Shown here piece after piece: positions 41,704 to 64,000 of a stretch of DNA of 64,000 bases. The DNA comes from Candidatus Tectomicrobia bacterium. Its GTDB lineage: Bacteria > UBA8248. The notes below the pieces were generated by a model that searched no databases, was not told the DNA's origin, and saw only the letters and a program-made list of their open reading frames with translations. The number at the start of each line of letters is the position of its first letter. Within the stretch, counting starts at the first letter, position 1. The DNA lies in contig JACPUR010000013.1 in NCBI GenBank assembly GCA_016192135.1, positions 124,001-188,000 of the forward strand, read 5' to 3'. The position numbers were made by a program, and so were the translations under genes.

Positions 41704-41714
41704 GGTGCCTCCCG

Positions 41715-42644
41715 TCAGCCCGCAGCCAGCATCCGGTACACGTTGCGCACGTTCCAAGGCATCCATTCCCGGTAGCGGGGCAACGACTCGTAGTCCCGCA
41801 GCGAGACGTTCCTCGCGGCCTCCTCCTCGCTCATCCCCTTCTTCCGCGCATCGGCCACGCCCCCCCGGAGCGCAGCGAGCATGTCACGTAAGTTATTGAT
41901 TTCATTCATGGTGGCAGGTTTGCCGTGGCCCGGAACGACCGTGCGGGCGTCGAGGCGGGCCACCCTCTCCAGGCAATCGATCCAGCCGCCGATGTCGCCG
42001 TCCCCCAGCCAGGGGAAACGGCCCACGAACAGGAGATCTCCCACGAAGACGATGCCATCGTCGGGGAGATGGACGACGATGTCGCCGTCGCAGTGGGCCG
42101 GCCCCCAGTACTGGAGGACCACCCGGCGCTTCGGGAAATGGAACGTGAACTGGTCAGCGAAAGTGTGCCTCGGAGGGATGGGAACCACCGCGTCGTACTC
42201 GGGCGCGGCGATGCGCCCCTTGAACCAGTCCCAGGCGGGGTCGCCCGGGGGGATTAATTCGCTGATGTTGGGGCCGAACAGGTGGGCGATGCGCTTGCCG
42301 AAATCGGTGACGGTTTCTCCCGCCCCGCCGTCCGGCCCGAAGAGCTCGCGGAACTTGGCGAGGGTGATCTCGTGCGCCAGGACGGGCGTGTCCCCGGCGA
42401 AGACGATTCCCCCGCCGGTGTGGTCCAGATGGTAGTGGGTCAGGATGAGCCAGGGAAAGGGCTTGCGCGAAAGGGCCTCCAGCTCCGAGCGGAACCGCCG
42501 CGCGAGGGGGACGCTCTGCTGGGCGTCGATGACGAGGTAACCCTCCGGCGTCTCGACGGCTCCCGCGTTCGAGTCGCCTCCCGCCCCCACGAAGGCGTGC
42601 ACGTCCTCGGCGAGGGTCACCAAGCGCGCTTTTTCAGGGCTCAT
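41715..42644 (-). CDS. MBL-fold metallo-hydrolase
   Basis: A 309-residue metallo-beta-lactamase-fold protein. The HxHxDH motif is THYHLDHTGG (H70, H72, D74, H75); later ligands lie in WGPAHCDGDIVVHLP and PGHGKPAT. It resembles the quorum-quenching/SoxH-like subgroup that acts on thioesters, lactones or sulfonates. ATG 42644 follows AGAGGAAAA. First gene of the MBL - amidohydrolase - LVIVD unit and 235 bp downstream of the molybdoenzyme-desulfurase fusion gene on the same strand. Its specific reaction cannot be read from sequence. Confidence 0.88.
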   Translation of the reverse strand: MSPEKARLVTLAEDVHAFVGAGGDSNAGAVETPEGYLVIDAQQSVPLARRFRSELEALSRKPFPWLILTHYHLDHTGGGIVFAGDTPVLAHEITLAKFRELFGPDGGAGETVTDFGKRIAHLFGPNISELIPPGDPAWDWFKGRIAAPEYDAVVPIPPRHTFADQFTFHFPKRRVVLQYWGPAHCDGDIVVHLPDDGIVFVGDLLFVGRFPWLGDGDIGGWIDCLERVARLDARTVVPGHGKPATMNEINNLRDMLAALRGGVADARKKGMSEEEAARNVSLRDYESLPRYREWMPWNVRNVYRMLAAG

Positions 42645-46423: not shown

Positions 46424-48169
46424 CTACTTCGCCGGGATAATCGGCAGCAGAAGATGCGCCGGCCGCCCCGGCCCCGTATGAAGCGTCACCTTCCGCCCGA
46501 ACACCCGCAGCGGGCGATCCTGCGGATGGATGTGCCGGAACGGCCCCACGCCGTAGTAGACGCGCTCGCTCGCCTGCTTGGGCGGATTCTCGAAGCCGGG
46601 ATAGACGTAATCCCGCCCCCGGACGCTCAGTCCCACCCGGTGGCCCTTCGGCACCGCGATTGAGGTCGGCCAGATTTCCACGTCGAGCTCGTATACCTCG
46701 CCCGCCTTGAGCGGCTGCTTCTCGTCGTGCGTATGATAGGGCCTGTAAGGCAGGGATTTCCTCGGATCCAGCTTTCGGTGCGAAGCCCTCAGCCAGCCGT
46801 GCCCCACGGGCGTGTGCGGGTCGTTCGAGCCCTGGAATGTGATCTCCCGCATCTCGGGGTCGAACACACGCAGCACGAGGAAGAGGTCCGCGTCCTCCGT
46901 TTCCGACGAGATGAACAGCTTGGCCGCGGCGGGCCCGGTGATCTCCGTCTCCTTCTCGAAAGGCGCCGTCAGGAAAGTGAGACCCTTCCCCACGGCCTCG
47001 TATTCCGCCGCTCTCTCCTTCTCATGAGGCTCCGTGGAGAGAGTGGCGTTCCCGGGATGGAGATAGAATTTCGTCCACCGCGTCCGGGCGAGGGGCCACT
47101 CGCTTTCGGCGCGCTCGACGAACTTTTCGCCCGGATGGCGGACGTGAAGAGCAATCTTGGGCTGGGTGGTCCAGCAAGTATCCTCACCCTTGAGGAAGTG
47201 GCCGAAGAAGCGCTTCTGCAGGGCGAGGCCGTAGTCGGTGTAGAAGTGGGTGAAATGGTCGAGCCCGTGCATCTCGAGCCACTTCTGCTCCGATGCGGCG
47301 TGCATGAATCCCTCGATGTTTCCCCGCGGGTGCAGTCCCACGCCTCCCCAGTTTCCGGCCGAGAGCAAGGGCACGTTGATCTTGGAGAAGTCCGGCATCC
47401 GGGCCTTCCAGTATTCGTCGATCAGCGGGTGATCGAGGAGGTCCTGCCCGTAATCGCAGCGGTTGGCGTTGAGTTCCTCGTCCGAGAGGGTCTCGGGCCC
47501 CGAGCTCCACTCGCCGTTGATCCGGCTGCGGAAATCGCGCTCCCCCCGCCCGTGCTGGCGGCGCACGACGGTGTCCTTGTACCAAGTGTCGGCGAAGATG
47601 CAATAAATCCCGCCGTGGTGGCTGAGGTCGCGGTACCAGTCCGCGGCACCCTCCCAGACGCACATGGCCGCGAGGTGGGGGGGCTGGAGAGAGGCGACGC
47701 ACCACTGGTTCATGGCATAGTAGGAAATACCGTTCAGCCCCACCTTTCCGCTGCACCAGGGCTGCCCGGCCGCCCACTCGATGCAATCGTAGAAGTCCTT
47801 CATCTCCCGGGGGGAAAACACTTCCATGAAGCCTGGGGAACGGCCCGCGCCGCGCGAATCTACCCGGACGCAGGCATACCCGTCGGGCACCCACTTCTCC
47901 GGGTCCGCCACCTCCCAGTTCGCGTACTTGCCCGAAGAACCCGCCAGCGACTCGGGATACTTCTCGGTCAACACCTTCCACTGGGCGGGATAACCGTCCA
48001 TGAGGTGCAGCCACTTGGCATAGGGCCCATAGGTCATGATGGCGGGGTACTTGCCCTCGGCGACGGGGCGGTAGACGTCGCACCGCAGGACGACGCCGTC
48101 ATCCATCTCGATCGGGACGTCCCAGTCGATTCGCATCCCATTTCGCACTTCACTCTTGAAAGCCTCCAT
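46424..48169 (-). CDS. CocE/NonD family hydrolase
   Basis: A 581-residue hydrolase of the CocE/NonD and Xaa-Pro dipeptidyl-peptidase class. The nucleophile is S149 (NGISYY, the GxSxx elbow); the alpha/beta core precedes a jelly-roll C-terminal domain (VYELDVEIWPTSIAVPKGHRVGL). Early RVDSRGAGRSPG is a family signature. Members hydrolyse esters (cocaine esterase), glutaryl-7-ACA or Pro-peptides. No signal peptide. ATG 48169 follows GGGAGGGAG. It lies 132 bp downstream of the TRAP permease on the same strand and is followed by a hairpin terminator, so it may be co-transcribed with the TRAP genes and act on the imported compound. Confidence 0.9.
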   Translation of the reverse strand: MEAFKSEVRNGMRIDWDVPIEMDDGVVLRCDVYRPVAEGKYPAIMTYGPYAKWLHLMDGYPAQWKVLTEKYPESLAGSSGKYANWEVADPEKWVPDGYACVRVDSRGAGRSPGFMEVFSPREMKDFYDCIEWAAGQPWCSGKVGLNGISYYAMNQWCVASLQPPHLAAMCVWEGAADWYRDLSHHGGIYCIFADTWYKDTVVRRQHGRGERDFRSRINGEWSSGPETLSDEELNANRCDYGQDLLDHPLIDEYWKARMPDFSKINVPLLSAGNWGGVGLHPRGNIEGFMHAASEQKWLEMHGLDHFTHFYTDYGLALQKRFFGHFLKGEDTCWTTQPKIALHVRHPGEKFVERAESEWPLARTRWTKFYLHPGNATLSTEPHEKERAAEYEAVGKGLTFLTAPFEKETEITGPAAAKLFISSETEDADLFLVLRVFDPEMREITFQGSNDPHTPVGHGWLRASHRKLDPRKSLPYRPYHTHDEKQPLKAGEVYELDVEIWPTSIAVPKGHRVGLSVRGRDYVYPGFENPPKQASERVYYGVGPFRHIHPQDRPLRVFGRKVTLHTGPGRPAHLLLPIIPAK

Positions 48170-48301
48170 GCTCCCTCCCGTCTGGCGCTTCGTGCCATTC
48201 GTTGCGCACCACAAATCCCGCTCGGGGAAATAAGCGTGCTTTCGCGTGCAACTGCATCAAGCTTTTCTCACAGCCCCCCGCGTCGGCGCCTTGCTTCGGC
48301 C

Positions 48302-50941
48302 TCAGGCCGGCGGCGAAGCGGGGGCTGAGGAGGATTCAGCGGGGATTGGCAGGGGGCCCCCGGCCTCCGCCTGCCCCCGCGCGCGGACGTTCTGAACCAC
48401 GATTCCGGCGATCATCAAGAGCGTTCCCAATGAGAACGTCCACCACACATCGGAGAAAAGAAGGAACGCGGCCAGCAGGAAGTTCGCGCGCTCCAAGACC
48501 TTAAGCCTGCACCGCAGGAATCCCTCGAATCCCGCTGCGGTGCAATAGAAGCCCATGAAGGTGGTCACCCATACCACCAGGATGTGCGGCCAGGAGGCAT
48601 CCTTGTTCATGAGAATCGGGGTGTACGCCATGAGGAAGGGCACGATGTAGAGCGCCCAAGCCAGGCGCACCGATGCGAACCCCGTCCGCATGGGGTCCGC
48701 CCCGGCGATGCCCGCCGCGATGAAGGCACCCAGCGCGAAGGGGGGTGTGAGCGGAGCGGTAACGGTGAACCACAGGGTCAGGAGATGCGCGTTGAGGAGC
48801 GGCACCCCCAACTTGAGCAGCGCGGGCACGGCCAGGACGGAGAGGAGGATGTAGGCGGCCGAGGCCGTCATGCCCATCCCCATCACGTAGGCGGCCGCCC
48901 CGCACAGGAGGATGACCATCGGCAGCTCGGTCCACTGCCAGCCGAACAGATCGACGAAGGTCTGGGCATATCCCAGGACGATCGAGGGAAACTTGAGGCC
49001 CAGGCCGGGAAGCGAGATGCCGGCCAGCATGACCCCCACCACCCCCGCCGTTACCCCGATGATGAGCGAGTTCAGGGCGCCTTTTTCCAGGCCATCCAGC
49101 ACCCGGGGGGAGGAAAGAACCAGGATCGCCGTGACGCCCCAGAAAAGGGATTGGCCGGCCTCGGCGCCCGCCAGCAGGAGGACGGCGGGCACGGCGGTGC
49201 CCGCCGCCAGCATCCAGTTCTCCCGCCAGAAAGTTCCGCGGGGGGCCGCCACCGCCTCGGCGACGATGCGCTGGTATTCCGCCTCTATCTTTTCAGCGGA
49301 ATGGTGGTCCCGGAGCATGGCCGCCTTTACCTCCTCGGCCCTGACCCGGGCCCAGTCCACGCCGGTGCCCCATGGGGGCACGCCCAGGGCGCGCGCGACG
49401 AGAGGAGGAAGGCCGATGATGCGTGTATCCTCCCGGAAGAAGCCGAGGAAGATGGAGAGCATGATGGCCCAAAGGGCCGCATCGAAGGGGGAGCGCCCGA
49501 TGACGAGGCGGATGACAAGCACCAAGACGGGGAGGAGGAGATAGCCCTCCTTCCGCATCACTTCGCCGAGGCGGGGCAGCTCTTCCTTCGGAATGCCGTG
49601 GATGCCCCATAGGCCGGCGCGGTGATGGACCGACATGTAGCACTGGTAGTAGTACATCACGGCGGGCATGAACGCGACGAGGGCGATGTAGTTGTAGTCG
49701 ATCTCGGTGAAGGCGGCCATGAGGAAGGCCGCCGAGCCCATGACCGGGGGCATCAGGATTCCCCCGGTCGAGGCGACCGCCTCCACCGCGGCCGCGAAGT
49801 GTGGCATGAAGCCGGATCGCTTCATCATCGGGATGGTGAAGGTGCCCGTGATCACGATGTTGGGCGCTCCGCTCCCGCAGATCATCCCCACGAGCCCGCT
49901 CGATACGACGGCCGCCTTGGCCGGGCCGCCGCGCAGATGGCCCACCAGGGCGAACGAGAGCTTCACGAAGACATCCCCCACCTTCGTCATCTCCAGGAAC
50001 ACCCCGAAGATGATGAAGAGGAAGACGTAGCTCGCATAGACCCCCGCGACCACGCCGAAGATACCCTCCGAGCCGAAGAGGAAATAGGAGAGCTCATTCC
50101 AGGTGAAGCCGGCGTGATGCAGGCGGCCGGAAATCGCGTTGCCGTGGACCGCGTAAACACAGAACAGAATACCGAGGGCGGGCAGGACCCAGCCGAGGAG
50201 CCGACGGCACATCTCGATGGAGATGGCGGCCGCGAGGAAGCCCATGATCACGTCGTGCCAGACGATGATTCCCGCCCGCTCGCCCCGGTCCGCGAAGTTC
50301 ACGATGTAGTTGAGGACGATGCCCAAGGTGATGACGAACAGCAGGACGTCCACCACCGAGGGTCGGTGCTTCGGGGACCGCTCCCTCGCGGGATAGTAGA
50401 AGAAGGTCAGTATCGCCGTGAAGAAGATGTACAGCGTGAGGTAATACTGGAATGCGTAGAGCTGCAGGGTGGGAAACTGGAAGGTTCCCCATATCCAGGA
50501 GAGATTCTTGGAGAGCCCGGTCGGAAGGACCGGGCCGAGGAAATAGACCAGCGGCTCGCCGAAGCCGAGCAGGAGATCCACCCGGGCGCTGTTGGCCGCG
50601 CCGTAGAGGAAATACCCGCTGAAAACGACCGCCGAGAGCCAAATCGCCACGCGGGGGAAAAGGCATACCCCCGTCGTGTAGAAGAAGAGGACCCCCGAGA
50701 CCGACAAGCTCAGCAGGGGCAGCCGGATCTCCTGCCAAGCCCATTCGTAGTCAATGGGCATGAACAGGGTGAACGTCCTCCCTCCGATGAACAGTTGATA
50801 AATGACAAAAAGAACGGTCAGGACCGCCCAGAGGGGGAATAGTTCCTTCTGAAGGCCTGGCGCCATGATCCGGCGGGGTTTCATTTCTGGGGATATGAGG
50901 AATTTCAAGCAGCTGAGCAGGTTTCTGATGCCCGGGCTCAT
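48302..50941 (-). CDS. TRAP transporter fused permease subunit (DctQM-type, TAXI class)
   Basis: An 879-residue integral membrane protein with about 18-20 hydrophobic segments. The N-terminal ~190 residues correspond to the small DctQ-type subunit and the rest to the large DctM-type subunit, fused as is usual for TAXI-type TRAP systems. The GxGAPNIVITG and GILMPPVMGSAAF segments are typical of the M domain. Na+- or H+-coupled uptake of organic acids is the known family role. ATG 50941 or GTG 50947 both fit the GAGGAAGG site. It lies 88 bp after the binding protein stop, with a hairpin plus T run in between that may lower its expression relative to the binding protein. Confidence 0.92.
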   Translation of the reverse strand: MSPGIRNLLSCLKFLISPEMKPRRIMAPGLQKELFPLWAVLTVLFVIYQLFIGGRTFTLFMPIDYEWAWQEIRLPLLSLSVSGVLFFYTTGVCLFPRVAIWLSAVVFSGYFLYGAANSARVDLLLGFGEPLVYFLGPVLPTGLSKNLSWIWGTFQFPTLQLYAFQYYLTLYIFFTAILTFFYYPARERSPKHRPSVVDVLLFVITLGIVLNYIVNFADRGERAGIIVWHDVIMGFLAAAISIEMCRRLLGWVLPALGILFCVYAVHGNAISGRLHHAGFTWNELSYFLFGSEGIFGVVAGVYASYVFLFIIFGVFLEMTKVGDVFVKLSFALVGHLRGGPAKAAVVSSGLVGMICGSGAPNIVITGTFTIPMMKRSGFMPHFAAAVEAVASTGGILMPPVMGSAAFLMAAFTEIDYNYIALVAFMPAVMYYYQCYMSVHHRAGLWGIHGIPKEELPRLGEVMRKEGYLLLPVLVLVIRLVIGRSPFDAALWAIMLSIFLGFFREDTRIIGLPPLVARALGVPPWGTGVDWARVRAEEVKAAMLRDHHSAEKIEAEYQRIVAEAVAAPRGTFWRENWMLAAGTAVPAVLLLAGAEAGQSLFWGVTAILVLSSPRVLDGLEKGALNSLIIGVTAGVVGVMLAGISLPGLGLKFPSIVLGYAQTFVDLFGWQWTELPMVILLCGAAAYVMGMGMTASAAYILLSVLAVPALLKLGVPLLNAHLLTLWFTVTAPLTPPFALGAFIAAGIAGADPMRTGFASVRLAWALYIVPFLMAYTPILMNKDASWPHILVVWVTTFMGFYCTAAGFEGFLRCRLKVLERANFLLAAFLLFSDVWWTFSLGTLLMIAGIVVQNVRARGQAEAGGPLPIPAESSSAPASPPA

Positions 50942-50981
50942 CGCCACCGCGAGCCTTCCTCTTTAGCAAGAACCGGAAGAG

Positions 50982-51017
50982 AAAAATCCCCGGACGGGAT
51001 GCGCCCCCGCCCGGGGA
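50982..51017 (-). terminator. intra-operon terminator/attenuator-like hairpin
   Basis: On the minus strand TCCCCGG (51011-51017) pairs with CCGGGGA (50987-50993) across a 17-base loop and is followed by TTTTTC (50982-50986 as A run on the plus strand). It lies 12 bp after the TAXI binding protein stop and before the permease start, a common place for partial terminators. Confidence 0.65.
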
Positions 51018-51029
51018 AGGTTCGCTGCC

Positions 51030-52037
51030 CTAATCCACCTTGAAGCCCTTTTCCTTCCAGTACCGCGCCGCTCCGGGATGGGTCTTCATGCCGGTCATCT
51101 GCATGATCTGGAGGAATTCCGGGTCCTTGGCCTGCTCCAAGCCGCTCTTCCATCCGACGGCGATGTTCACCATCAGATCGGCGTTCTTCGGGTCGTAGGT
51201 GTGCCGCGTCACCTCGTAGACGACGTCGTTGGGCACCTGCGTGTTCGATACGAGCATGGACATGTAGACCACCGTGGTGAACGGCTCGTCTTCCATGCCC
51301 TTGTAGAGGTTCGTCTTATACGTCTTCTTGTAGTATCCCTTGCTGTAATCGATGAACGCCTGGATAACGTCGTCGGGCAGGGTCAGGATCCGGATCGGCG
51401 CCGAGTAGGAGGCCTGCAGGATGGCAGGCGCCCCGAGCGGGTTCGGAATGCCGAAGGCATCGAGCTTGCGGTCCACCATGTAGGTCGCCGCGTCGTTCCA
51501 GTTCATGCTGTCCTTGCGGACGCCCTCCCACAGGCCCGCCTTCTTCAAGGCGTACTCGATCATCCAGGCCGAGTTGCTGCCCTTGGGCCCCAGGCTGACG
51601 CGCTTGCCCTTGAGGTCCGCGAAGGTCTTGAGCCCGCCGTCCTTGAGTACCGCCAGCTGCAGGATGGCGTCCCCGGAGGGGCCGATGCCGCGCAGGGTGT
51701 CCCGCGCGCCCGTATCGCGCTCGAAGGGATTGAGCTTGCGCTGCCAAAAGTCCACGAAGGGGCCGCTCGACATGGCGATCTGCACCCGGTTGCGCGCGAC
51801 CAGACGGGTGCCCTCGACGAAGCCGCCCGACTCCCGGTTCGTCGCCTGAAGCATCTTGCTGTTCCGGTTCACCACCTCGGCCACCGCGGCCAGAGCCCGG
51901 TAGGCGTTCGCCCCCTTCCCCGCGCCCGTGACGGTGATGCTGGTGGGCGCGGCTTCCGCCGCCATCGGGACGGCCAGACCGCTGGCGAGGCCAAAGGCCG
52001 CCAGCCAAAGAAGGGAATTCTTGGGCAGCCATTTCAT
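51030..52037 (-). CDS. TAXI family TRAP transporter solute-binding protein
   Basis: A 335-residue periplasmic binding protein. Signal peptide LLWLAAFGLASGLAVPMAAEA, then SITVTGAGKGANAYRALAAVAEVVNRN and the LKGKRVSLGPKGSNSAWM block, the equivalent of the GPxGSG loop in TAXI proteins. GGAGGG precedes the ATG. First gene of the TRAP unit (fused permease next, CocE hydrolase after). TAXI proteins bind glutamate or other carboxylates in the few cases known; the solute here is unknown. Expressed from a perfect TTGACA promoter that shares its -35 region with a divergent alpha/beta hydrolase gene. Confidence 0.9.
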   Translation of the reverse strand: MKWLPKNSLLWLAAFGLASGLAVPMAAEAAPTSITVTGAGKGANAYRALAAVAEVVNRNSKMLQATNRESGGFVEGTRLVARNRVQIAMSSGPFVDFWQRKLNPFERDTGARDTLRGIGPSGDAILQLAVLKDGGLKTFADLKGKRVSLGPKGSNSAWMIEYALKKAGLWEGVRKDSMNWNDAATYMVDRKLDAFGIPNPLGAPAILQASYSAPIRILTLPDDVIQAFIDYSKGYYKKTYKTNLYKGMEDEPFTTVVYMSMLVSNTQVPNDVVYEVTRHTYDPKNADLMVNIAVGWKSGLEQAKDPEFLQIMQMTGMKTHPGAARYWKEKGFKVD

Positions 52038-53269: not shown

Positions 53270-55039
53270 CTATCCCGGGAACGCCAGCTCCTCGATGAAC
53301 GAGTCTTGAAAATCCTTCCGCCCTGCCAGTTCCACATACCGCGCCTTGCTCTTGAGCGATGAGGCGCGCGCCAGCTCCGCCCGGGAGAGGAGGGCGAGGC
53401 GCGCTCCGCTCGCGGCGGCGTTGTTCACGACGCGGACGCGACCGGCGGACTCCCTGGGCAGGAGGCCGATCCTGCACGCCCGTTCCGGGCGCAGATGGGC
53501 GCCGAAGGCCCCGGCGAGACAAACTTCGTCCACCTGCCCCCACCGGAGGCCCGCTTCCTGGAGGAGAAGCTCCGCGCCCGCGCGCACCGCCGCCTTCGCC
53601 GCCTGGAGCTTGCGGACATCTCCCTGGGTCAGGACGACCGCTCCTCCCTTTCCGCCACCGCCCAGGAGAACCCCCCGCCCCCCCTCCTCCTCGATGATGC
53701 GCCGGCGCAGGGGCCCCTCCTTGAGCGCGGCTGCCGCGCGTATCTTCCCCGATGGGTCAACGACGCCCAGGTCGAGAAGGCCCGCAGCCGCCTCGATGAG
53801 TCCCGTCCCGCAGATCCCGGAGGCGGATAGTCCCCCGACCGTGCGGAGGGTGAAGTCCCCTTCGCCTGGTTCCATCGCGCAGATGGCACCCGGGCCCACA
53901 CCCATCCCGCAGCGGATCTCGCCCCCCTCAAATGCCGGGCCGGCCGGGGTCGAGGCGCACCAGATCCCTCCCCCCGGCGTCCCCAACAGGATTTCCACGT
54001 TCGTCCCCAGGTCCAGGGCCAGGCAGACGGACTTCCGCTCCGGCCGGCCGAGCCCCAGGGCGAGCGCCACCCCCACCGCATCCGCGCCGACGAAGCCGGC
54101 GAGCAGAGGGAGGAAATGCGCCTCCGCCGAGGCCGGCAGGCGGAGACCCGCTTCCCGGGGGCGGAAAGGAACACCTCCATCCGCCAGGGGCGCGTAGGGC
54201 GCCGTGCCGAAGGATTCCACCGGCATCCCCAGGAACAGGTGGTGCATCACGCTGTTTCCCGCGAAGACCAGCCCGGCGACCTGGCTCCGGCGCGCCCGGA
54301 TGGAGCGGAGCAGGTCCGTGAGAAGGAAATCGACGTCGTGGCGGACGGCGCGGGTGAGTTCCTCCCCGGCGCCCCCTCCGCCCGTCTCCCGGGGGCTGGC
54401 CGCCAGCACCCGCGTCATCAGGTCGGCGCCCCAGGTGCGCTGGCTGTTCGGCCTCGAAGCCTCGGCCAGCAGGGCGCCCGTTTCCAGGTCGATGAGATAG
54501 CCGCACAAATTGGTGGTGCCGATGTCCACCACCGCGCCGTACGCCTTCGCCTGCGATGAAATTCCATTCCCGCAGCACCAGGGATCAATGCGCAGCGGAA
54601 GCGAGGTGTCCATCGTCTTGGGGACGGGGCTCTCCCCGGGCGGCGGGGCGAGGACGGCGAGCCTCCCCTCCACCCGGACCTGACAGGCCAGGCGCCATCC
54701 CGCCCGCAACTCTTCCCGGGAGAGCTGGAGAGCCTCGGCGGGATTGGGAGGTCCAAGCCAGGCGGGCGGCCCCTGGTTCGGGTCCGCGCTCCCCAGAGGA
54801 ATGACCCGGCAGCGGGTGCATTTGCCGAAGCCGCCGCAGTCGGTCGCGATGGGAAAGCCGGCGGTCCGGGCGCCCTCGAGAATGGTGGCGCCTTCGGCGA
54901 GCCAGCCGCGGCGGGCGGGCTCACCGGAGAGAGGAGAGGCGCCCTCGGAACTCTCCGGGGAGAGACGGTAGAAAAGGACCTCGAAGCGATTTTCCCCGTC
55001 CTCCTCCCCAGGGGCGGAGGCTCTCTCAGTAGCGGCCAT
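53270..55039 (-). CDS. RACo-like ATP-dependent corrinoid reactivation protein (ASKHA, 2Fe-2S)
   Basis: A 589-residue protein of the RamA/RACo-type (DUF4445) family that re-reduces inactive Co(II) corrinoid in methyltransferase systems. An N-terminal [2Fe-2S] domain has C68, C74, C77 (CGGFGKCTRC) and C119; a linker follows, then the ASKHA ATPase domain from about residue 165 (GAVVDIGTTNLCGYLID), with LDLGTNVEILLG near 330 and a late VCLAGAFGAHL. It overlaps the UroD-type gene by 14 bp and has a weak ribosome site, so translation is probably coupled. In the same operon are a corrinoid protein and two methyltransferases, which fixes its likely role: keeping that corrinoid protein in the active Co(I) state. 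Confidence 0.9.
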   Translation of the reverse strand: MAATERASAPGEEDGENRFEVLFYRLSPESSEGASPLSGEPARRGWLAEGATILEGARTAGFPIATDCGGFGKCTRCRVIPLGSADPNQGPPAWLGPPNPAEALQLSREELRAGWRLACQVRVEGRLAVLAPPPGESPVPKTMDTSLPLRIDPWCCGNGISSQAKAYGAVVDIGTTNLCGYLIDLETGALLAEASRPNSQRTWGADLMTRVLAASPRETGGGGAGEELTRAVRHDVDFLLTDLLRSIRARRSQVAGLVFAGNSVMHHLFLGMPVESFGTAPYAPLADGGVPFRPREAGLRLPASAEAHFLPLLAGFVGADAVGVALALGLGRPERKSVCLALDLGTNVEILLGTPGGGIWCASTPAGPAFEGGEIRCGMGVGPGAICAMEPGEGDFTLRTVGGLSASGICGTGLIEAAAGLLDLGVVDPSGKIRAAAALKEGPLRRRIIEEEGGRGVLLGGGGKGGAVVLTQGDVRKLQAAKAAVRAGAELLLQEAGLRWGQVDEVCLAGAFGAHLRPERACRIGLLPRESAGRVRVVNNAAASGARLALLSRAELARASSLKSKARYVELAGRKDFQDSFIEELAFPG

Positions 55040-56186
55040 ATTCCATCGCGGCTTCGAACATGGCGCAGACGTTCTCGGGAGGGACCTCGTCCTGGATGTT
55101 GTGGACGAAGTTCAGGACATAGCCGCCGCCGGGGGCGAGATCCCCGATGCGCCGCTTCACCTCTTCAAAGATCTCGGCGCGGGTGCCGAACGGGATCACG
55201 CGCCCGGTGTCGATGCCCCCCCAGAAGAACAGGTCCTTGCCGAACTCCCGCTTGAGCCGGGCGGTGTCCCCCATATTCTTGGCGGAAACCTGCACAGGGT
55301 TCAGGCCGTCCACCCCCACCTCGATCAGGTGGGGGAGGAACATGTCGATGCAGCCGTCGCAATGGTAGAGGAGCTTTCCTTCGGGCGCCGCCCGTTTCAT
55401 CGCGTCGAAAAGGATTTTCTGGCGAGGCTTCACGAATTCCTTGTACATCTGCATCGAGATCATGGGGCCGTTCTGCGTTCCCAGGTCATCTCCCAGCAGG
55501 AAAACATCCACGTAGCCCCTCGTCTCCTCCAAGGCGCGCCCGATCATCTCCAGCTTGATCTCGACAACCTTGTCGAGAAGCGCGTGGATGAACTTCTTGT
55601 TCGTCACGAGGTCGGAGTAGAACTCGCCGAAGCCTCGCAGCCATTCGGCTTCCGCCCAGAATCCGCCGCGCGGGTAGAAGACCACCGCGTAATCCGTCTC
55701 CTCATGGAGCTTCCTCGCTCTCTCCCTCAGGCCGCGGTAGAGGCCCGGGTCCTTCGGATCGGGCCACGGGAAGCGCCGGAGCGCTTCGAGGGTTCCGTTC
55801 CCGTCTCCCTCGAATGGCCCCTTCAGGAGAAAATAGGAGTTCGATTCCTCGGTCTTTTCCCACTGGACGCCCCATTCGTCCTGATAAGTGCGCGGGCCGA
55901 TTTGGATGTCCCGCCAGTCCTCCGAGGGGCCGAGGAGCAGGGGGCGCGTGTCCACGTGGAAGCGCCCGAGGATCTCCTCATCCACGAAGGCGACCTGCCC
56001 CTGCTTGGTCATGATGCGCGTCTCGGCTTCGACCCCCATGAAGCGCTTCAGCTTCTCGTAGGCCAGCGCCGAGATGCTGCTGACCGAGGTCGAGCCGAAG
56101 TCGATCGGGACCCGGTCCGCCTCCTGGTGGCTGATCGCCCGCCGGACCCGCTCCCTCGGGGTCGGCGCCCCGTTTCGGGAAGTCAT
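55026..56186 (-). CDS. UroD-family (MtaA/MtbA-like) methyltransferase
   Basis: A 386-residue protein of the uroporphyrinogen decarboxylase superfamily in the branch used as corrinoid methyltransferases rather than haem enzymes. The RxxxxHxEADRVPIDFG opening and a late YHCDGCIDM segment, with His and two Cys suitable for zinc, fit MtaA/MtbA-like or methoxyl/N-methyl demethylases. ATG 56186 follows GGGAGA; GTG-led extension to 56237 overlaps the corrinoid gene. It lies 20 bp after the corrinoid protein and overlaps RACo by 14 bp. It most likely transfers a methyl group between a substrate and the corrinoid protein. Confidence 0.88.
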   Translation of the reverse strand: MTSRNGAPTPRERVRRAISHQEADRVPIDFGSTSVSSISALAYEKLKRFMGVEAETRIMTKQGQVAFVDEEILGRFHVDTRPLLLGPSEDWRDIQIGPRTYQDEWGVQWEKTEESNSYFLLKGPFEGDGNGTLEALRRFPWPDPKDPGLYRGLRERARKLHEETDYAVVFYPRGGFWAEAEWLRGFGEFYSDLVTNKKFIHALLDKVVEIKLEMIGRALEETRGYVDVFLLGDDLGTQNGPMISMQMYKEFVKPRQKILFDAMKRAAPEGKLLYHCDGCIDMFLPHLIEVGVDGLNPVQVSAKNMGDTARLKREFGKDLFFWGGIDTGRVIPFGTRAEIFEEVKRRIGDLAPGGGYVLNFVHNIQDEVPPENVCAMFEAAMEYGRY

Positions 56187-56206
56187 CTTAGGTATCTCCC
56201 ATGGGC

Positions 56207-56860
56207 TCAGAGCGCCCGGACGTGGGCCGGCGCGCACAGCGCCTTGAAGCGGTCCACGGCGACGGCTGCGTCCTTGGCGTAGCCGTCCGCCCCAATCTTC
56301 CTGGAGTAGGCTTCGTCGAGGGGGGCGCCGCCGACCACGATCCGGACCTCCGGCCCGAACGGAGCCCGGCGGATCTCCTGAATGATGCCACTCATGCGGT
56401 TCATGGTGGTGGTGAGGAGGGCCGACATGCCCAGCAGGCGCGCCCCCGTCCGCTCAATCGCTTGGATGAATTTCTCGGCGCCCGCGTTCACGCCCAGGTC
56501 GGTCACCTCGAATCCGGCGCCCCGGAGCATCATGGCCACCAGGTTCTTTCCGATATCGTGCATGTCGCCCTTCACCGTTCCGATGACCACCTTGCCGAGC
56601 GGCTTCACGCCCGTGGCCTCCAGCAGGGGGCGGAGCAGCTCCATGGCGGCCGTCATGACCTTCGCGGCCGCCATGAGCTCGGGAATGAACGCCTCTCCTC
56701 GGCCGAACTGGTCGCCGAGGATGTTGATCCCGGGGATCAATCCCTCGTTGAGGATCGCCACCGCGCCCCGGCCCGCATCCAGCTCGGCCCGGATCAGCCT
56801 GAGCACGGCTTCCTTGTCGCCCGATACGACTCCCTGCGTCAGCTCTGTATCGTGTGGCAT
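56207..56860 (-). CDS. corrinoid (B12-binding) methyltransferase protein
   Basis: A 217-residue corrinoid protein of the MtaC/MtbC/MttC type: an N-terminal helical cap (residues 1-~85, LNEGLIPGINILGDQF and FIPELMAAAKVM) and a Rossmann B12 domain. The base-off ligand motif DxHxxG is D99-M-H101-D-I-G104 in KGDMHDIGKNLV; GLGVN-equivalent DLGVNA and VGGAPL follow. It carries the methyl group between the two methyltransferases of the operon. Lies 42 bp after the homocysteine methyltransferase gene and 20 bp before the UroD-type gene. Confidence 0.93.
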   Translation of the reverse strand: MPHDTELTQGVVSGDKEAVLRLIRAELDAGRGAVAILNEGLIPGINILGDQFGRGEAFIPELMAAAKVMTAAMELLRPLLEATGVKPLGKVVIGTVKGDMHDIGKNLVAMMLRGAGFEVTDLGVNAGAEKFIQAIERTGARLLGMSALLTTTMNRMSGIIQEIRRAPFGPEVRIVVGGAPLDEAYSRKIGADGYAKDAAVAVDRFKALCAPAHVRAL

Positions 56861-56902
56861 GGCTCTCCTCTTTGCGACGCGGGTTTCCTCGTCCGCCCCG
56901 GT

Positions 56903-57790
56903 TCAATTGCCCCGCCGCAGCGCCTCGCTCATGGCGCGGATGTGGGCGGGCGTCGTCCCGCAACACCCTCCGATGTACCGGGCTCCCCCCTCGCGGCATC
57001 GGACCGCGTGGGCGGCCATCTCCCGGGCGCCCGCCTCGTAGCGGACCTCCCCCTCCCTCGCCCGAGGGATCCCCGCGTTGGACTGGACGATGAGGGGGAG
57101 GCCGGGATTCGCCAGGCTCATCTCATTGAGAATCTTCTCCATCTCGGAGGGGCCGTTGCCGCAGTTGGATCCGATCGCCCGGATGCCGGCCCCCGCCATC
57201 TCCAGGGCGGCCCGTCTCGGGGAAACCCCCATCATGGTGCGGCCGTGCGTATCGAAGGTCATGGTGCAGAAGACGGGCAGTCCGCAGGCCACGCGAGCCC
57301 CCTCCGCCCCGGCGCGAACTTCCTCCAGGTCGCTCATCGTCTCGAGCAAGATGAAATCCGCCCCGCCCTCGGCGAGCCCCCGGCACTGTTCGGCGAAGAT
57401 GTCCCGGGCGTCCTCGAAGGAGAGCTCCCCCACCGGCTGGAGAAGCGCGCCCGTCGGCCCCGCCGATCCCGCCACCAGCACCCGCCGCCCCGAGCCGTCC
57501 GCCGCTTCCCGGGCAATTCCGGCGCCCGCCTGGTTCAGCTCCCTCGTGCATCCATTCAGGCCGTGAAGGGAGAGACGGAAACGGTTTCCGCCAAAGGTAT
57601 TTGTGGTCACGACATCGGCCCCGGCGGCGATGTAGGCCTCATGGATGGAGCGGACGACCTTGGGACTCGCCGTATTCAGCCGCTCCGGGGCGTCGCCCGG
57701 CTCCAGGCCGGCGGCCTGGAGCATGGTGCCCATCGCGCCGTCTCCGATGAGAAGGCCGCTTCCCGCAAGCCATTCGTCCAGAAGGCTCAT
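56903..57790 (-). CDS. homocysteine S-methyltransferase family protein
   Basis: A 295-residue BhmT/MetH-N-terminal-type methyltransferase. The zinc ligands that bind the homocysteine thiolate are all present: C210 (SNCGNGP), C276 and C277 (GGCCGTTP). GDGAMGTMLQ near residue 17 and TNTFGGNR near 63 match the family. ATG 57790 has GGAAGTTCC upstream; the frame is open to 57838 without support. It is the first gene of the corrinoid operon. In MetH this domain receives methyl from corrinoid; here the corrinoid protein is a separate gene right behind, so a split methionine synthase function is likely. Thiol substrates other than homocysteine are possible. Confidence 0.9.
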   Translation of the reverse strand: MSLLDEWLAGSGLLIGDGAMGTMLQAAGLEPGDAPERLNTASPKVVRSIHEAYIAAGADVVTTNTFGGNRFRLSLHGLNGCTRELNQAGAGIAREAADGSGRRVLVAGSAGPTGALLQPVGELSFEDARDIFAEQCRGLAEGGADFILLETMSDLEEVRAGAEGARVACGLPVFCTMTFDTHGRTMMGVSPRRAALEMAGAGIRAIGSNCGNGPSEMEKILNEMSLANPGLPLIVQSNAGIPRAREGEVRYEAGAREMAAHAVRCREGGARYIGGCCGTTPAHIRAMSEALRRGN

Positions 57791-58129: not shown

Positions 58130-59161
58130 TTAGTTGAGTTTGGCCTTCCAGCCTTCCGGCGGGTTGTTGCCGTCGAAGTCGTAGCTGTCCACGTTCTTGG
58201 GCGTGACGATGACGGTCCGGTTCCACGTCATCCCAGGCACCTTCTGCCCCAGGGCCATCTTCACGGCCAAGCGCATGGCATCCCTCGCCATGTTCACGGG
58301 CGTGTTGGGCACCAGGACCTGTACATAACCCTCCCGTAGGGCTTGCTCCTGATGCTTGGCGATGTCCTGACAGGAGACCATCACGTCGCCCGGCTTCTTG
58401 CCGCGGGCCTTGAGGGCCTGCACGACCCCCTGCTGAATCAGGCCGCCGAAGCAGTACACCCCCTTCAGGTCGGGATGGGCTTGGAGGATATCCTCCATGT
58501 TCTTGAGGCCCTCGGCCGGATCGCTGGCGGACCACTTGGTGACCACGACCTTGATGCCCTTGAAGCGCCGGAGATATTCGAGCGCGCCGTCGTAGCGCCA
58601 CTTGGCCGCGTCGGCCCCCGGAGGGCCAGGGAGCATGGCCACCTTGCCCTTGCCTCCGATGGCTTCCGCCAGCCCTGCCCCGTTCAGCATCCCGATTTCG
58701 TAGTCCGACTTCATCACCTGCACCGCGACCGGCGTGCGGAGAGCGATGTTGTCCACGACCACGGGAATCTTGGCCGTGACCGCCTTTTTGTACGTCGGCA
58801 CCATGCCCGTGCTGCTGACTGCGTTGAGGATGATGGCATCCGGTTTCGTCTGGATCGCATCCTCGAACTGCTGGATCTGCTTGCTCAGGAAGGCATAGCC
58901 GCCCGCGTCGAAAATCTGGAAGGTCACGCCCAGCCGCTTCGCCTCGTCCTCGTATCCGTACCACTTCGACTGGAAGTAGGGGTCCGGCCCGTTGGGGATG
59001 AAGACCACCACCCGGATCTTCTTGCCGGCCGGGACCTTGGGGGCGGCCACCGCCGCCGCGTAGTGATCCTCCGCCGCCCATAGTTCGGGGACCGGGCCCA
59101 GGAGCAGCATCGCCAGGGGCACTGCCAGCAGGGCCAGCCACAGCATCTTTCGTCGTGTCAT
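58130..59161 (-). CDS. sugar-type ABC solute-binding protein (RbsB-like)
   Basis: A 343-residue periplasmic binding protein of the peripl_BP_4 (RbsB/LacI-fold) class. Signal peptide MLWLALLAVPLAMLLLGPV ending near AEDHY, then KIRVVVFIPNGPDPYFQSKWYG, the usual first lobe. IDAIILNAVSS-type hinge (PDAIILNAVSSTGM) and a second lobe with GVYCFGGLIQQGVVQ follow. GGAGGAAG precedes the ATG. It is the last gene of the ATPase - permease - permease - binding protein operon, an uncommon order, and is followed directly by a strong terminator. The ligand is unknown: the family binds pentoses, autoinducer-2, polyols and purines. Confidence 0.88.
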   Translation of the reverse strand: MTRRKMLWLALLAVPLAMLLLGPVPELWAAEDHYAAAVAAPKVPAGKKIRVVVFIPNGPDPYFQSKWYGYEDEAKRLGVTFQIFDAGGYAFLSKQIQQFEDAIQTKPDAIILNAVSSTGMVPTYKKAVTAKIPVVVDNIALRTPVAVQVMKSDYEIGMLNGAGLAEAIGGKGKVAMLPGPPGADAAKWRYDGALEYLRRFKGIKVVVTKWSASDPAEGLKNMEDILQAHPDLKGVYCFGGLIQQGVVQALKARGKKPGDVMVSCQDIAKHQEQALREGYVQVLVPNTPVNMARDAMRLAVKMALGQKVPGMTWNRTVIVTPKNVDSYDFDGNNPPEGWKAKLN

Positions 59162-59222
59162 AGCGTCTTCCTCCCGATTCGACTCGACCGCCACGGAACC
59201 TGCAACTCCCTTTTCTCTCCCG

Positions 59223-60263
59223 CTACGCGACCCGCCGCCGCGCCACCGAGAGCCAGAAAGCGGCGATGATGATGCCCCCAATGATCATCTGCTGGACGAA
59301 GGTGGACACCCCCAGGATGTTCAGGCCGTTCCCCAGGAAGGCGATGATGAGGACGCCCATGGCCGTCCGGTAAATGCCGCCCTCGCCGCCCATGAAGTTT
59401 GTCCCTCCGATGGCCACGGAGGCGATGCCGTCCATCAGAAGGGGGAAGCCTCCCAGGTGGGGATGTCCCGAGGCCGAGCGGGACGAGAGGAGATAGGCGG
59501 CGACGGCCACGCAGAGGCCGCTCACCATGTAGATGACCATCTTCACCCGCTGCACCGGCACCCCCGACATGGCGGCGGCCTCCTCGTTCCCGCCGATGGC
59601 GTACACGTACCGGCCGAAAGGCGTCCGGCTCATCAGGAGGTACAGGAGGCCCGCCACCCCCAGGGCCACGAGGAGAGGGACCGGGACGGGGCCGATGTGC
59701 CCCTGCCCCAGCCAGAAGAAGACGGGCGCTTGCACGCTCTTCCCGGTCACGTCCATGAAAAAGAGGGTCCGGCCGGAGGTATAGACCAAGGCCAGCCCGC
59801 CCGCGATGTAGAGCATCCCGACCGTCGCCAGGAACGGCTGGATCCGGACGTAGGCCACCATCAGCCCGGTGAAGAGCCCGGCCGCCGCGCCCGCGAGCAG
59901 TCCGATGGAGGTTCCGGCCGCGAAGCCGAAGTGGATGATGGCGTCCACGGCGACGACGCTCACCAGGCTCGCCACCATCCCCTGCGAGAGATCGATACCC
60001 GCGCTGAGGATGGTGATGGTCTGGCCCGCGGCGATGATGTAGAGGATGGCCGCGTGGCGGATCACGTTGCCCAGGTTCTCGCCCGTCAGGAAGTGCGGGC
60101 TGCGGAGCGAGAAGAAGACCCCCATGCCCACCAGCGCCGCCGCCAGCAGGACCACCTGCCAGTCCACTTCGGCAGGGAGCTGAGGCCGCGCCACCGCCGT
60201 GCGAATCCGCGCTGCGGCACCGGCCGCGTCCAAGGCTTGCGTTCTCTCGGGTGCCGTTTCCAT
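59223..60263 (-). CDS. sugar-type ABC transporter permease (RbsC-like), second subunit
   Basis: A 346-residue BPD_transp_2 permease. Features: ILYIIAAGQTITILSAGIDLSQG near residue 75, the periplasmic/cytoplasmic R-T-P-F-G-R-Y-V-Y-A-I-G-G-N-E-E-A-A segment, GGTNFMGGEGG and NGLNILGVSTF near the end. ATG 60263 follows GAGGGAAG. The overlapping frames are antisense or shifted shadows. It lies 20 bp after the first permease and 61 bp before the binding protein. The two permeases are different from each other, so a heterodimeric channel is likely. Confidence 0.9.
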   Translation of the reverse strand: METAPERTQALDAAGAAARIRTAVARPQLPAEVDWQVVLLAAALVGMGVFFSLRSPHFLTGENLGNVIRHAAILYIIAAGQTITILSAGIDLSQGMVASLVSVVAVDAIIHFGFAAGTSIGLLAGAAAGLFTGLMVAYVRIQPFLATVGMLYIAGGLALVYTSGRTLFFMDVTGKSVQAPVFFWLGQGHIGPVPVPLLVALGVAGLLYLLMSRTPFGRYVYAIGGNEEAAAMSGVPVQRVKMVIYMVSGLCVAVAAYLLSSRSASGHPHLGGFPLLMDGIASVAIGGTNFMGGEGGIYRTAMGVLIIAFLGNGLNILGVSTFVQQMIIGGIIIAAFWLSVARRRVA

Positions 60264-60283
60264 CGGTCTTCCCTCGGCCATCC

Positions 60284-61273
60284 TCAGCGCCGCTGCACGC
60301 CCCGCATGGCCGTGGCGGCCACGGAGGCCAGAATAATTCCGCCAATGACCACCTGCTGAATGAAGGTGGACATCCCCAGCAGGTTCAGGCCGTTCACCAT
60401 GAGGCTGATCACCAGCATCCCGAGGAAGGTCTTGAGGACGCCCCCCCGGCCGCCGAAGAGGGAGGTTCCCCCGATGACCACCGATCCCAGGGACTGGAGG
60501 AGAAGATCGCCGCCGCCCAGGAGCGGCTCGCCCGAGATCGCTCGGGCCGTGAGGATGTATCCCCCGATGCCGCTCAGTATCCCGCTCAGGGTGTAGACCC
60601 CGACCAGCACCCAGGGCACCCGGATTCCCGAGGTAAGCGCCGCCTCGGGGTGCCCGCCCACTGCGTAGATGTGGCGGCCCAGCCGCGTCCGCTGGAGAAA
60701 GAAGTGAAGGAAGACGAGCCCGATGCCCATGAACACGGCCGGGACGGGCACCGGGCCCAGGCTTCCCTGCCCCACCCACGCGAAGTAGGGCAGGATGTCC
60801 TCTGGGATGCCGGCGATGGGCTCCCCCCCCGTATATTGCAGGGCGAGGCCGGCGGCCACGAACGATGTGCCCACGGTCACGATGATGGGGCTGAGGCGGA
60901 CGATTCCCACCAGGACGCCGTTGATGAGCCCCACCACGAGCCCCACCAGAAGCCCGGCGCCGGTGCCCGCCGCCAGGCCGAACTGCATCATCACTCCAAT
61001 GGTGATCACGCTGGTCAGGCTCACGATTGAGCCCTGAGAGAGGTCGATGCCGCCCGCCAGCAGACAGAGGGTCTGGCCCATCGCCAGGAAAAAGAGGGGG
61101 CTGGCCTGGCGCAGGATATTGGAGAAGTTCTCCACCCGGAGGAAGTGGGGCGAGAGACTCGTATAGACGACGCCCATGCCGGCCAGCACGGCCAGGAGAG
61201 CCACATCGCTCCAGGCGATGTTCCAGCCCTTCCGTCCCGGCAGATGACCCGCGGCCGCCTCGACCGTCGCCAT
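60284..61273 (-). CDS. sugar-type ABC transporter permease (RbsC-like), first subunit
   Basis: A 329-residue BPD_transp_2 permease, paralogous to the next gene. FLAMGQTLCLLAGGIDLSQ, the TRLGRHIYAVGGHPEAA segment, GGTSLFGGRGG and NGLNLLGMSTFIQQ match the family. It starts 10 bp after the ATPase stop. Having two permease genes per operon occurs in several CUT2 systems and points to a heterodimer. ATG 61273 lies behind GGGAGGAACC. Confidence 0.9.
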   Translation of the reverse strand: MATVEAAAGHLPGRKGWNIAWSDVALLAVLAGMGVVYTSLSPHFLRVENFSNILRQASPLFFLAMGQTLCLLAGGIDLSQGSIVSLTSVITIGVMMQFGLAAGTGAGLLVGLVVGLINGVLVGIVRLSPIIVTVGTSFVAAGLALQYTGGEPIAGIPEDILPYFAWVGQGSLGPVPVPAVFMGIGLVFLHFFLQRTRLGRHIYAVGGHPEAALTSGIRVPWVLVGVYTLSGILSGIGGYILTARAISGEPLLGGGDLLLQSLGSVVIGGTSLFGGRGGVLKTFLGMLVISLMVNGLNLLGMSTFIQQVVIGGIILASVAATAMRGVQRR

Positions 61274-61283
61274 GGTTCCTCCC

Positions 61284-62792
61284 TCAGACCGCCGCCGGCG
61301 CGGCGGGCGGGGCTTCGTCCAGCATGGCGGCGCGGAGGATCTTCTCCTGGGTGGCTTCCGCCCGCGAGAACTCGCCCGTGAGGCGGCCCTCCCGCATCAC
61401 CAGAATCCGATCGCTCATGCCCAGGATCTCCGGCATCTCCGAGGAAATCATCAAGACGCCGGCGCCGCCCCGGGCCAGCTCCACCATGAGCCGGTGCACC
61501 TCGTACTTGGCCCCCACGTCGATGCCGCGCGTCGGCTCATCGAAGATGAGCACATCCGCCCCCGAGCAGAGCCACTTGGCCAGGACCACCTTCTGCTGAT
61601 TGCCACCGCTCAGGAACCGCACCTGGCGGTCCAGCCTCGGCGTGGCGATGTTCAGCCTCCCGGCGTACTCACGGGGCAGGACTGCCTCGCGCTTGCGGTC
61701 GAGGAACAGCCACCGGACAAGGCGCCCCAGGGCGACCAGGGTGATGTTGGCGGCCACGGAGAGAAGGAGGATGACACCTTGGTTCTTGCGATCCTCGGGG
61801 ATGAGCCCCAGGCCCCGGCGGATGGTATCGCGCGGGGTACGGGGGCGGAGGCGCTCACCTCTCAGCACGATGTTTCCCTGGTCGGCGCGATCCACCCCGA
61901 GGATAGCCCGGGCCATCTCCGTGCGGCCTGCGCCCACCAGCCCCGCCAGACCCAGGATTTCCCCTCGGCGGAGCGAAAAGCTGATGTCCCGGAAGGCGTT
62001 CCCTTCCCCCAGGCCCTCCACCCGGAGCACCTCCTCGCCAGCCTCCCGGGGCTCCCAGGGGAACTTCTCCGCCAGCTCCCGGCCCACCATGAGGCGGATG
62101 GTGTCTTCCGGCGAGAGCTCCTGTACCGGACCCGTGTGCACGTGACGTCCGTCCCGCAGGATGGACACCCGGTCCCCGATTTCCGCCACCTCCTCGAGCC
62201 TGTGGGAGATGTAGATAATCCCGACCCCCTGTTCCCGCAGGCGCCGGACGACAGCGAAGAGAGCCTTCACTTCCTCCTGGTCCAGCGATGAAGTGGGCTC
62301 GTCCATCACCATGATGCGGCAGCGGGCGCGGATGGCCTTGGCGATCTCCACCATCTGGCGGTCGGCCACGCTCAGCTCTTCCACAGGGATGCGCGGATCC
62401 AGCGAGCGGCCGAGGCTCCGAAGGAAATCGGCCGAGACGGAATTCATGGTGGCCCGGTCGATGAGACGGGCAGGGCCGACCGGCTCCTCGCCCAGGAAGA
62501 TGTTTTCCGCGACCGAGAGCTGAGGGATCAGGTTCAGCTCTTGATAAATCGTGCGTATCCCGAGCTCCCGGGCGCGGCGCGGCGAGTCTATTTCCACCTC
62601 CTTCCCCTCCAGAAGGATGCGGCCTTCGTCCTTCTGGTAGAGCCCGGCGAGAATCTTGATGAGGGTGGACTTTCCGGCGCCGTTCTCGCCCAGCAGGACG
62701 TGTACCTCCCCGGCGCGCAGGTCGAAATTCACGGCGTCCAGGGCGCGGACCCCGGGGAACTCCTTGGCGATTCCTTCCATGCGGAGCACCAT
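61284..62792 (-). CDS. sugar ABC transporter ATP-binding protein (RbsA/MglA-like, duplicated)
   Basis: A 502-residue CUT2-type ATPase with two ABC domains. The first has Walker A GENGAGKS near residues 35-42, signature LSVADRQMVEIA and Walker B CRIMVMDEPTSSLD; the second has the usual degenerate P-loop GLVGAGRTE and signature LSGGNQQKVVLA with LIFDEPTRGID. ATG 62792 follows AAGGACG; the frame open to 62933 covers the leader. First gene of the operon, behind a perfect TTGACA promoter. It energises the RbsC-like permease pair. Confidence 0.93.
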   Translation of the reverse strand: MVLRMEGIAKEFPGVRALDAVNFDLRAGEVHVLLGENGAGKSTLIKILAGLYQKDEGRILLEGKEVEIDSPRRARELGIRTIYQELNLIPQLSVAENIFLGEEPVGPARLIDRATMNSVSADFLRSLGRSLDPRIPVEELSVADRQMVEIAKAIRARCRIMVMDEPTSSLDQEEVKALFAVVRRLREQGVGIIYISHRLEEVAEIGDRVSILRDGRHVHTGPVQELSPEDTIRLMVGRELAEKFPWEPREAGEEVLRVEGLGEGNAFRDISFSLRRGEILGLAGLVGAGRTEMARAILGVDRADQGNIVLRGERLRPRTPRDTIRRGLGLIPEDRKNQGVILLLSVAANITLVALGRLVRWLFLDRKREAVLPREYAGRLNIATPRLDRQVRFLSGGNQQKVVLAKWLCSGADVLIFDEPTRGIDVGAKYEVHRLMVELARGGAGVLMISSEMPEILGMSDRILVMREGRLTGEFSRAEATQEKILRAAMLDEAPPAAPAAV

Positions 62793-63208: not shown

Positions 63209-64000
63209 TCAGGCCGGATTGGCGATCTCGCTTCGCCAGCCCAGTTCCTCCTCGCACCAGCGGGCGGCCGCCAGGAGATCGGATTCGCCGAAGCGTCTCC
63301 CTCCCAGTTGAAGCCCCATCGGCAGGCCCTCCTTTCCCCTTCCGGCCGGAAGCGTGATGCAAGGCAAGCCCGAATGGCTGAACGCCTCCGTGGCCAGCCG
63401 GTTCACCTGGGAGGGCTTCCCCCCCGGAGCAGCTCCCCAGGGAGGCGGGAAGCTCGCCATGGAAGGGAGGAGTAAAAGCTCGTGGCGCCTCAAGAGCGTT
63501 TCCAGCTCTCGGGCGAGCCGGGCCCGGAAGCGCAAAGCCCGCAGATAATGGACGGCGGGAATCATGAAGCCCGAGAGCACGGTTTGCCGGATGGTCGGGG
63601 CGTAGTCTTCCGGGCAGGCACGGAAGAGCGCCTCGTGGTAGCTCGCCGCCTCGGCCCGCATGATGATCCGGTGGGTGGCATGCATGAGGTCGAAGTCGAA
63701 GGGCAGATCCCCCTCTTCCACAGCGACCCCCGCCTCCCGCAGGCGCGCGGCCTCGCGCAGGGCGGCATCCGCGACCTCCGGATGGGCCCGGGAAAGAAGC
63801 CCTTTCAAGAAGAGCACGCTCCCGGGCCGGCGGGGGAGCGACTCCGCCGGGTAGTCGGGGACGGGCGCGTCGGCGGCGGTGTCGTCCGCGGGATGGGCCC
63901 CCGCGATGTGGGCGAGCAGAAGGGCGGCGTCCTCCGCGGTCCGCGAGAGGACCCCCAGGTGGTCCAAGGTCCAGGAAAGCGAGAACACGCCCGCCAGGGG
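63209..64000 (-). CDS. amidase signature family protein, partial (5' end outside window)
   Basis: The last 263 codons of an amidase, truncated by the window edge. The visible part opens with GVFSLSWTLDHLGVLSRTAEDAALL, the segment just after the catalytic Ser loop in amidase-signature enzymes, and ends with GLPCITLPAGRGKEGLPMGLQLGGRRFGE, the classic C-terminal block of GatA/AtzF-like amidases. The catalytic Ser-cisSer-Lys lies beyond 64000. Relation to GatA is unlikely because no GatB or GatC gene is near; an amide-catabolising enzyme is more probable, in keeping with the surrounding hydrolases. Confidence 0.88.
   Translation of the reverse strand, partial: PLAGVFSLSWTLDHLGVLSRTAEDAALLLAHIAGAHPADDTAADAPVPDYPAESLPRRPGSVLFLKGLLSRAHPEVADAALREAARLREAGVAVEEGDLPFDFDLMHATHRIIMRAEAASYHEALFRACPEDYAPTIRQTVLSGFMIPAVHYLRALRFRARLARELETLLRRHELLLLPSMASFPPPWGAAPGGKPSQVNRLATEAFSHSGLPCITLPAGRGKEGLPMGLQLGGRRFGESDLLAAARWCEEELGWRSEIANPA

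Follow-up and report, generated by a model that had tools for sequence, protein, structure and literature searches.

Described methyl-transfer systems and the Tectomicrobia operon

Corrinoid-dependent methyl transfer to homocysteine is known both in the single chain of MetH and in split methionine synthases. In the latter, mutant fitness data from Phaeobacter identified Bmt/MtgE as the homocysteine subunit (PMC5764234), and a synthase of this type has been described in Ruegeria together with a glycine-betaine demethylase (PMC12478193). Bmt of P. inhibens, moreover, accepts methyl groups in vitro directly from dimethylsulfoniopropionate (DMSP) or betaine, with no corrinoid involved (PMC12366255). 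Here we describe a four-gene corrinoid operon in a 64,000-nucleotide stretch of a Candidatus Tectomicrobia genome (GCA_016192135.1, contig JACPUR010000013.1, positions 124,001 to 188,000; hereafter the window). On the minus strand, running from 57790 to 53270, it encodes a homocysteine S-methyltransferase (BhmT), a corrinoid protein, a UroD-like protein and a RACo-like protein, in that order. We put the odds somewhat better than even that this operon is a self-contained, folate-independent methyl relay, in which a UroD-type demethylase feeds homocysteine beside an ordinary MetH.

Translation, with start codons taken from the DNA sequence, and Pfam searches bore out all four genes and the assignments given to them in the original prediction, which had been made from the letters alone. 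The residues named there are also present, i.e., C210, C276 and C277 of BhmT (the candidate zinc ligands, all three kept), the DMHDIG motif at residues 99–104 of the corrinoid protein, and the 2Fe-2S cysteines of the reactivase, which lie in its N-terminal domain at positions 68, 74, 77 and 119. The RACo-like protein is the sole RACo_C_ter match in the genome, and the best NCBIfam matches of the corrinoid protein are pyl_corrinoid, MtbC and MtgC, each under its own cut-off. A tight order with overlaps had been predicted; the order stands and the overlaps do not, as only the UroD and RACo genes overlap (by 14 bases), the other two junctions being gaps of 42 and 20 bases. Rfam models revealed no cobalamin or S-adenosylmethionine (SAM) riboswitch in the window or in sister loci, and no consensus promoter or terminator was found ahead of the BhmT gene.

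Every part of the operon can be assigned to a known family, and the principle of such modular systems has already been published for MttB-type donors. Like MetH, the operon has a homocysteine domain (PF02574) and B12 domains (PF02607/PF02310), though on separate chains; unlike MetH, it has neither the pterin-binding domain (PF00809) nor the activation domain (PF02965), and a RACo-type protein takes the place of the latter. It shares with the split synthase and MtgBCDE + RamA systems of Phaeobacter, Ruegeria and Sinorhizobium a homocysteine methyltransferase of the same clade, a stand-alone corrinoid protein and a RamA/RACo-type activator—an organization whose corrinoid protein can also be served by a methyl donor enzyme. 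In contrast to these systems, its front end is of the UroD type and not the MttB-type MtgB, the pterin subunit MtgD is missing, and everything is contained in one small operon of a genome that retains a full MetH. None of the four operon genes encodes the DUF1638 partner of the split synthase, and no wider search for it was made in this genome.

The UroD, corrinoid and RACo genes of the operon resemble the UroD-type O-demethylase and haloalkane systems (MtvABC, OdmABD and CdmBCA), which likewise combine a UroD-superfamily methyltransferase I with a corrinoid protein and an activator. In those systems, however, methyltransferase II is a tetrahydrofolate enzyme and not a homocysteine enzyme, and the UroD subfamily of the operon appears distinct from theirs. 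Type 1 mlp clusters (MtaA-like, corrinoid and Ram proteins) also have a UroD-superfamily enzyme and no tetrahydrofolate methyltransferase, yet each encodes two or more MtaA-like proteins with His-Cys-Cys sites, whereas the operon carries a single UroD gene (a pair in some sister genomes), which is not SCMT-like and has a His-Asp-His motif, plus a BhmT gene. Finally, the core synthases MesA-D resemble the proposed relay in that MesA-C draw on a methyl-corrinoid protein, and not on folate, to make methionine, but they are MetE homologues and the homocysteine enzyme of the operon is of the BhmT/MetH type. In the literature searched, we found no system that couples a front end of the UroD type directly to a homocysteine methyltransferase.

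Homocysteine and UroD-type enzymes

The BhmT protein falls in the homocysteine-methyltransferase family both by its Pfam S-methyl_trans match and by its position in the tree, which places it with Bmt/MtgE and not with the non-homocysteine enzymes that the original prediction had named as the contrary outcome. In this maximum-likelihood reconstruction, it clusters with the bmt genes of S. meliloti (Sinorhizobium) and Terrarubrum (support 95/89), and the Terrarubrum gene adjoins one for an MttB-family methyltransferase. The closest solved relatives in the PDB are homocysteine domains of MetH (3.4e-48 for T. maritima MetH), ahead of human BHMT; the match to NCBIfam PRK07534 scores 308 bits, under the cut-off of 338. 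One sister genome has a further BhmT gene (L177 1848-2732; G010 C172) that stands by itself, with no UroD or corrinoid gene nearby, and lies inside the operon BhmT clade.

A check of the genome for metH and the methyl-tetrahydrofolate pathway, suggested together with the prediction, revealed a complete MetH elsewhere (homocysteine, pterin, two B12 and activation domains) as well as MetF. The only other place with a PF00809 domain is taken as FolP. Because MetH and MetF are encoded and PF00809 is confined to MetH and the presumed FolP, we read the operon as accessory and devoid of a dedicated folate partner. The idea that the operon is a split methionine synthase taking over from MetH is not supported, given the presence of both enzymes and the phylum-wide distribution, in which the MetH activation domain occurs in 18 of 18 genomes and the operon's UroD gene in six. 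The same complete MetH and 18/18 count rule out a loss of MetH, and a MetE-like core synthase is ruled out by the PF02574 assignment of the homocysteine enzyme. Since it runs beside MetH, the operon probably serves as a salvage route or a catabolic point of entry for methyl groups and not as the housekeeping methionine synthase. That MetH and MetF already provide methionine also lends some weight to an alternative in which the relay is the same and the acceptor is another thiol or a selenol, or homocysteine is one of several acceptors, so that the product would not be methionine; UroD/corrinoid/Ram clusters of anaerobes have indeed been proposed to act in methyl-selenide and methyl-sulfur metabolism (PMC10418091). 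The grouping of BhmT with Bmt/MtgE and MetH homocysteine domains, with its three zinc cysteines kept, speaks against this alternative, which we regard as improbable.

On the donor side, we modeled the UroD-like protein with AlphaFold2 (pLDDT, predicted local distance difference test, 92.5). The top Foldseek match of the model was the coenzyme M methyltransferase MtaA (4ay7), VIA-align gave Z values of ~27 equally to UroD and MtaA, and CdmB was a weak sequence match. In a profile alignment, the His-x-Cys of MtaA aligns with H275/D277 and its later Cys with H362, and these three residues form a candidate metal site in place of the His-Cys-Cys of MtaA. Among the aligned sequences bearing the motif, 34 read His-Cys-His and eight His-Asp-His, seven of the latter belonging to the operon clade; all seven full-length operon UroD copies tested have His-Asp-His. 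The operon site thus resembles, by alignment, those of UroD-type O-demethylases in having no Cys-Cys pair of the kind found in S-methyl enzymes. Across the superfamily, S-methyl enzymes keep His-Cys-Cys and O-methyl enzymes have carboxylates or have lost ligands (PMC10418091); applied to the His-Asp-His site, this rule points to a methyl group on oxygen as the most likely donor and makes a thioether unlikely. We count the UroD-type donor enzyme of the original prediction as supported, and we infer its donor and the direction of transfer.

Heme synthesis was considered as a role for the UroD-like protein and ruled out. HemE enzymes carry the N-terminal motif R-x-P-x-W-x-M-R-Q-A-G-R, where the operon protein reads DRVPIDFGSTSVS; the motif is absent, and a separate HemE-like gene (URO-D 3e-126) is located elsewhere in the genome.

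Conservation and distribution

In sister genomes, the gene order is BhmT-Cor-UroD-RACo or BhmT-Cor-UroD-UroD-RACo (Cor, corrinoid protein) on every contig long enough to read, some copies being interrupted by contig ends, and the UroD proteins are 74–77% identical to that of the window. This shared order indicates that the arrangement is more than chance and, as the flanking genes vary among the genomes carrying the operon, the four-gene unit stands alone. The tandem UroD pairs (L019 7306-9655, L022 292-2640 and L021 5920-7801) arose by duplication within the operon's own lineage; with His-Asp-His kept in the tested copies, they could form a heterodimer or act on two substrates. The predicted lack of a pterin-binding domain holds for the operon and for the surroundings of every orthologous copy, in or near which no pterin-binding methyltransferase was found. 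Such a partner in homologous operons had been named as counter-evidence; it is missing from the orthologous operons and does occur in one distant cluster (G075), where a pterin-binding gene stands beside MttB, Cor and BhmT.

We also searched 368 genomes sampled across the domain, all from outside the phylum, with thresholds of E <= 1e-40 for the UroD subfamily and E <= 1e-65 for the stand-alone corrinoid protein, and these searches overturned the notion that the arrangement is confined to the phylum. Matches were found in 45 and 67 genomes, respectively. The corrinoid protein was present in 39 of the 45 genomes with the UroD subfamily vs 28 of the 323 without it (Fisher p = 4e-28, a value that overstates the strength of the association because related genomes are not independent); by family, it accompanied the UroD-subfamily gene in 29 of 34. 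The 30 best loci of each search and, in all, 20 chosen clusters were read, which is not a measure of frequency. Corrinoid and BhmT genes were often adjacent among these loci, and Cor-UroD pairs recurred in other families, some with no adjacent BhmT gene. The latter pairs, along with the direct use of small donors by P. inhibens Bmt in vitro (PMC12366255), could point to two separate functions, i.e., a Cor/UroD/RACo demethylase that discharges its methyl group elsewhere and a BhmT that works alone with a small donor such as betaine or DMSP. Yet such a demethylase would have no separate pterin acceptor subunit for the methyl group, and the BhmT-Cor adjacency recurs in many sampled genomes; we deem two functions quite improbable.

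BhmT, Cor and UroD genes occur together in G160, G297, G293, G361, G112 and G370, representing five other families (G160 and G297 belong to one). The G160 and G297 clusters also include DUF1638 and an additional UroD, whose site is MtaA-like, and a RACo-like gene lies within the clusters of G160, G293 and G112. An MttB-Cor-BhmT cluster was found in G154; its MttB was confirmed by Pfam, and the other genes of clusters such as G154 and G075 were identified by sequence likeness. In the BhmT tree, the operon BhmT and the BhmT genes of the UroD clusters from other families occupy different clades, and three switches of the UroD-context label are required. Judging from these separate clades and label switches, clusters with a front end of the UroD or MttB type seem to have come together on more than one occasion, in different lineages.

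At distant UroD loci (<=44% identical; an exact-peptide-word scan reaching 15 loci), no BhmT or corrinoid neighbour was found, and a scan of viral contigs for UroD gave no match. One family (G188, G041 and G326; L162, L163 and L164) shows UroD followed by BhmT, with no corrinoid gene alongside. Between the two, G188 encodes a small protein that matches Met_synt_B12 weakly, and G041 has a similar open reading frame there. In the BhmT-X-UroD-Cor-RACo cluster of G112, X is a 226-amino-acid protein with no Pfam match (L175 4994-5674)—possibly a new subunit of the corrinoid system.

Direction of transfer and genomic setting

In the relay that we favor, the UroD-type enzyme would demethylate its donor, most probably an O-methyl compound such as a methyl ether, and load the methyl group onto the Co(I) corrinoid protein; the Bmt-type BhmT would then hand the corrinoid-bound methyl to homocysteine held on zinc, yielding methionine; and the RACo protein would re-reduce corrinoid that has slipped to Co(II). 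Direction, donor chemistry and homocysteine as the acceptor are, for these three steps, what we infer. For the more specific path—from the UroD subfamily through corrinoid to homocysteine, folate-free and with a methyl ether as the probable donor—we consider the chances about even. The least probable alternative is a reverse flow, in which the BhmT-like enzyme demethylates, e.g., S-methylmethionine or DMSP and UroD passes the corrinoid-bound methyl to an acceptor as MtaA does to coenzyme M: characterised MtaA-type enzymes act in that direction and MtaA is the closest solved methyltransferase, but the UroD site is without the two cysteines used for thiol acceptors and the BhmT family is a homocysteine-acceptor family.

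Several points weigh against the forward relay to homocysteine. To our knowledge, no member of the operon's UroD subfamily has been characterised. Most UroD-subfamily genes are not adjacent to a corrinoid gene, and lifestyle or common ancestry could account for part of the co-occurrence of the two. Since true UroD has a His at the position aligned with H362, this residue may not be a metal ligand; some enzymes of the UroD type, moreover, require no zinc (PMC13222342). BhmT itself may have another donor, given the direct use of DMSP and betaine by its P. inhibens counterpart (PMC12366255). If the relay does operate as proposed, uncultured bacteria of the Tectomicrobia/Nitrospinota type, and apparently those of other lineages, could route methyl groups of an environmental compound into the methionine/SAM cycle while bypassing folate. 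The tie to corrinoid would then provide a first functional handle on a large UroD-like subfamily with several copies in many genomes, for which the operon offers a small, clonable four-gene test system.

Table 1. Operon genes and neighbouring features, in window coordinates.
Feature	Position	Strand	Details
Bmt/MtgE-type homocysteine S-methyltransferase (BhmT)	56903..57790	-	295 amino acids; Pfam S-methyl_trans 5e-76
Stand-alone corrinoid (B12-binding) protein	56207..56860	-	217 amino acids; Pfam B12-binding 3e-29 + B12-binding_2 2e-19
UroD-superfamily methyltransferase	55026..56186	-	386 amino acids; Pfam URO-D 5e-22
RACo/RamA-type corrinoid reductive activator	53270..55039	-	589 amino acids; Pfam RACo_C_ter 1.8e-64, Raco_middle 8e-39, Fer2 1.4e-5
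RbsABC-like sugar-type ATP-binding cassette (ABC) transporter: substrate-binding protein, two permeases, ATPase	58130..62780	-	Pfam + NCBIfam; directly upstream of operon
TAXI-type tripartite ATP-independent periplasmic (TRAP) transporter: DctM-containing membrane protein + NMT1-like binding protein	48302-52037	-	membrane protein of 881 amino acids
S15 X-Pro dipeptidyl-peptidase	46424-48214	-	
Amidohydrolase	40663-41766	-	
Amidase	63209-63988	-	

The ABC transporter upstream of the operon (Table 1) is a possible partner and may point to a sugar-like methyl ether as the donor; it is absent beside the sister operons. Similar sugar-type transporters adjoin distant UroD homologues in L026, L042, L083 and L089. 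A TRAP transporter pair related to that of the window (33% and 22% identical) is found near the operon in L020, and the peptidase, amidohydrolase and amidase genes give the operon peptide- and amide-catabolic surroundings.

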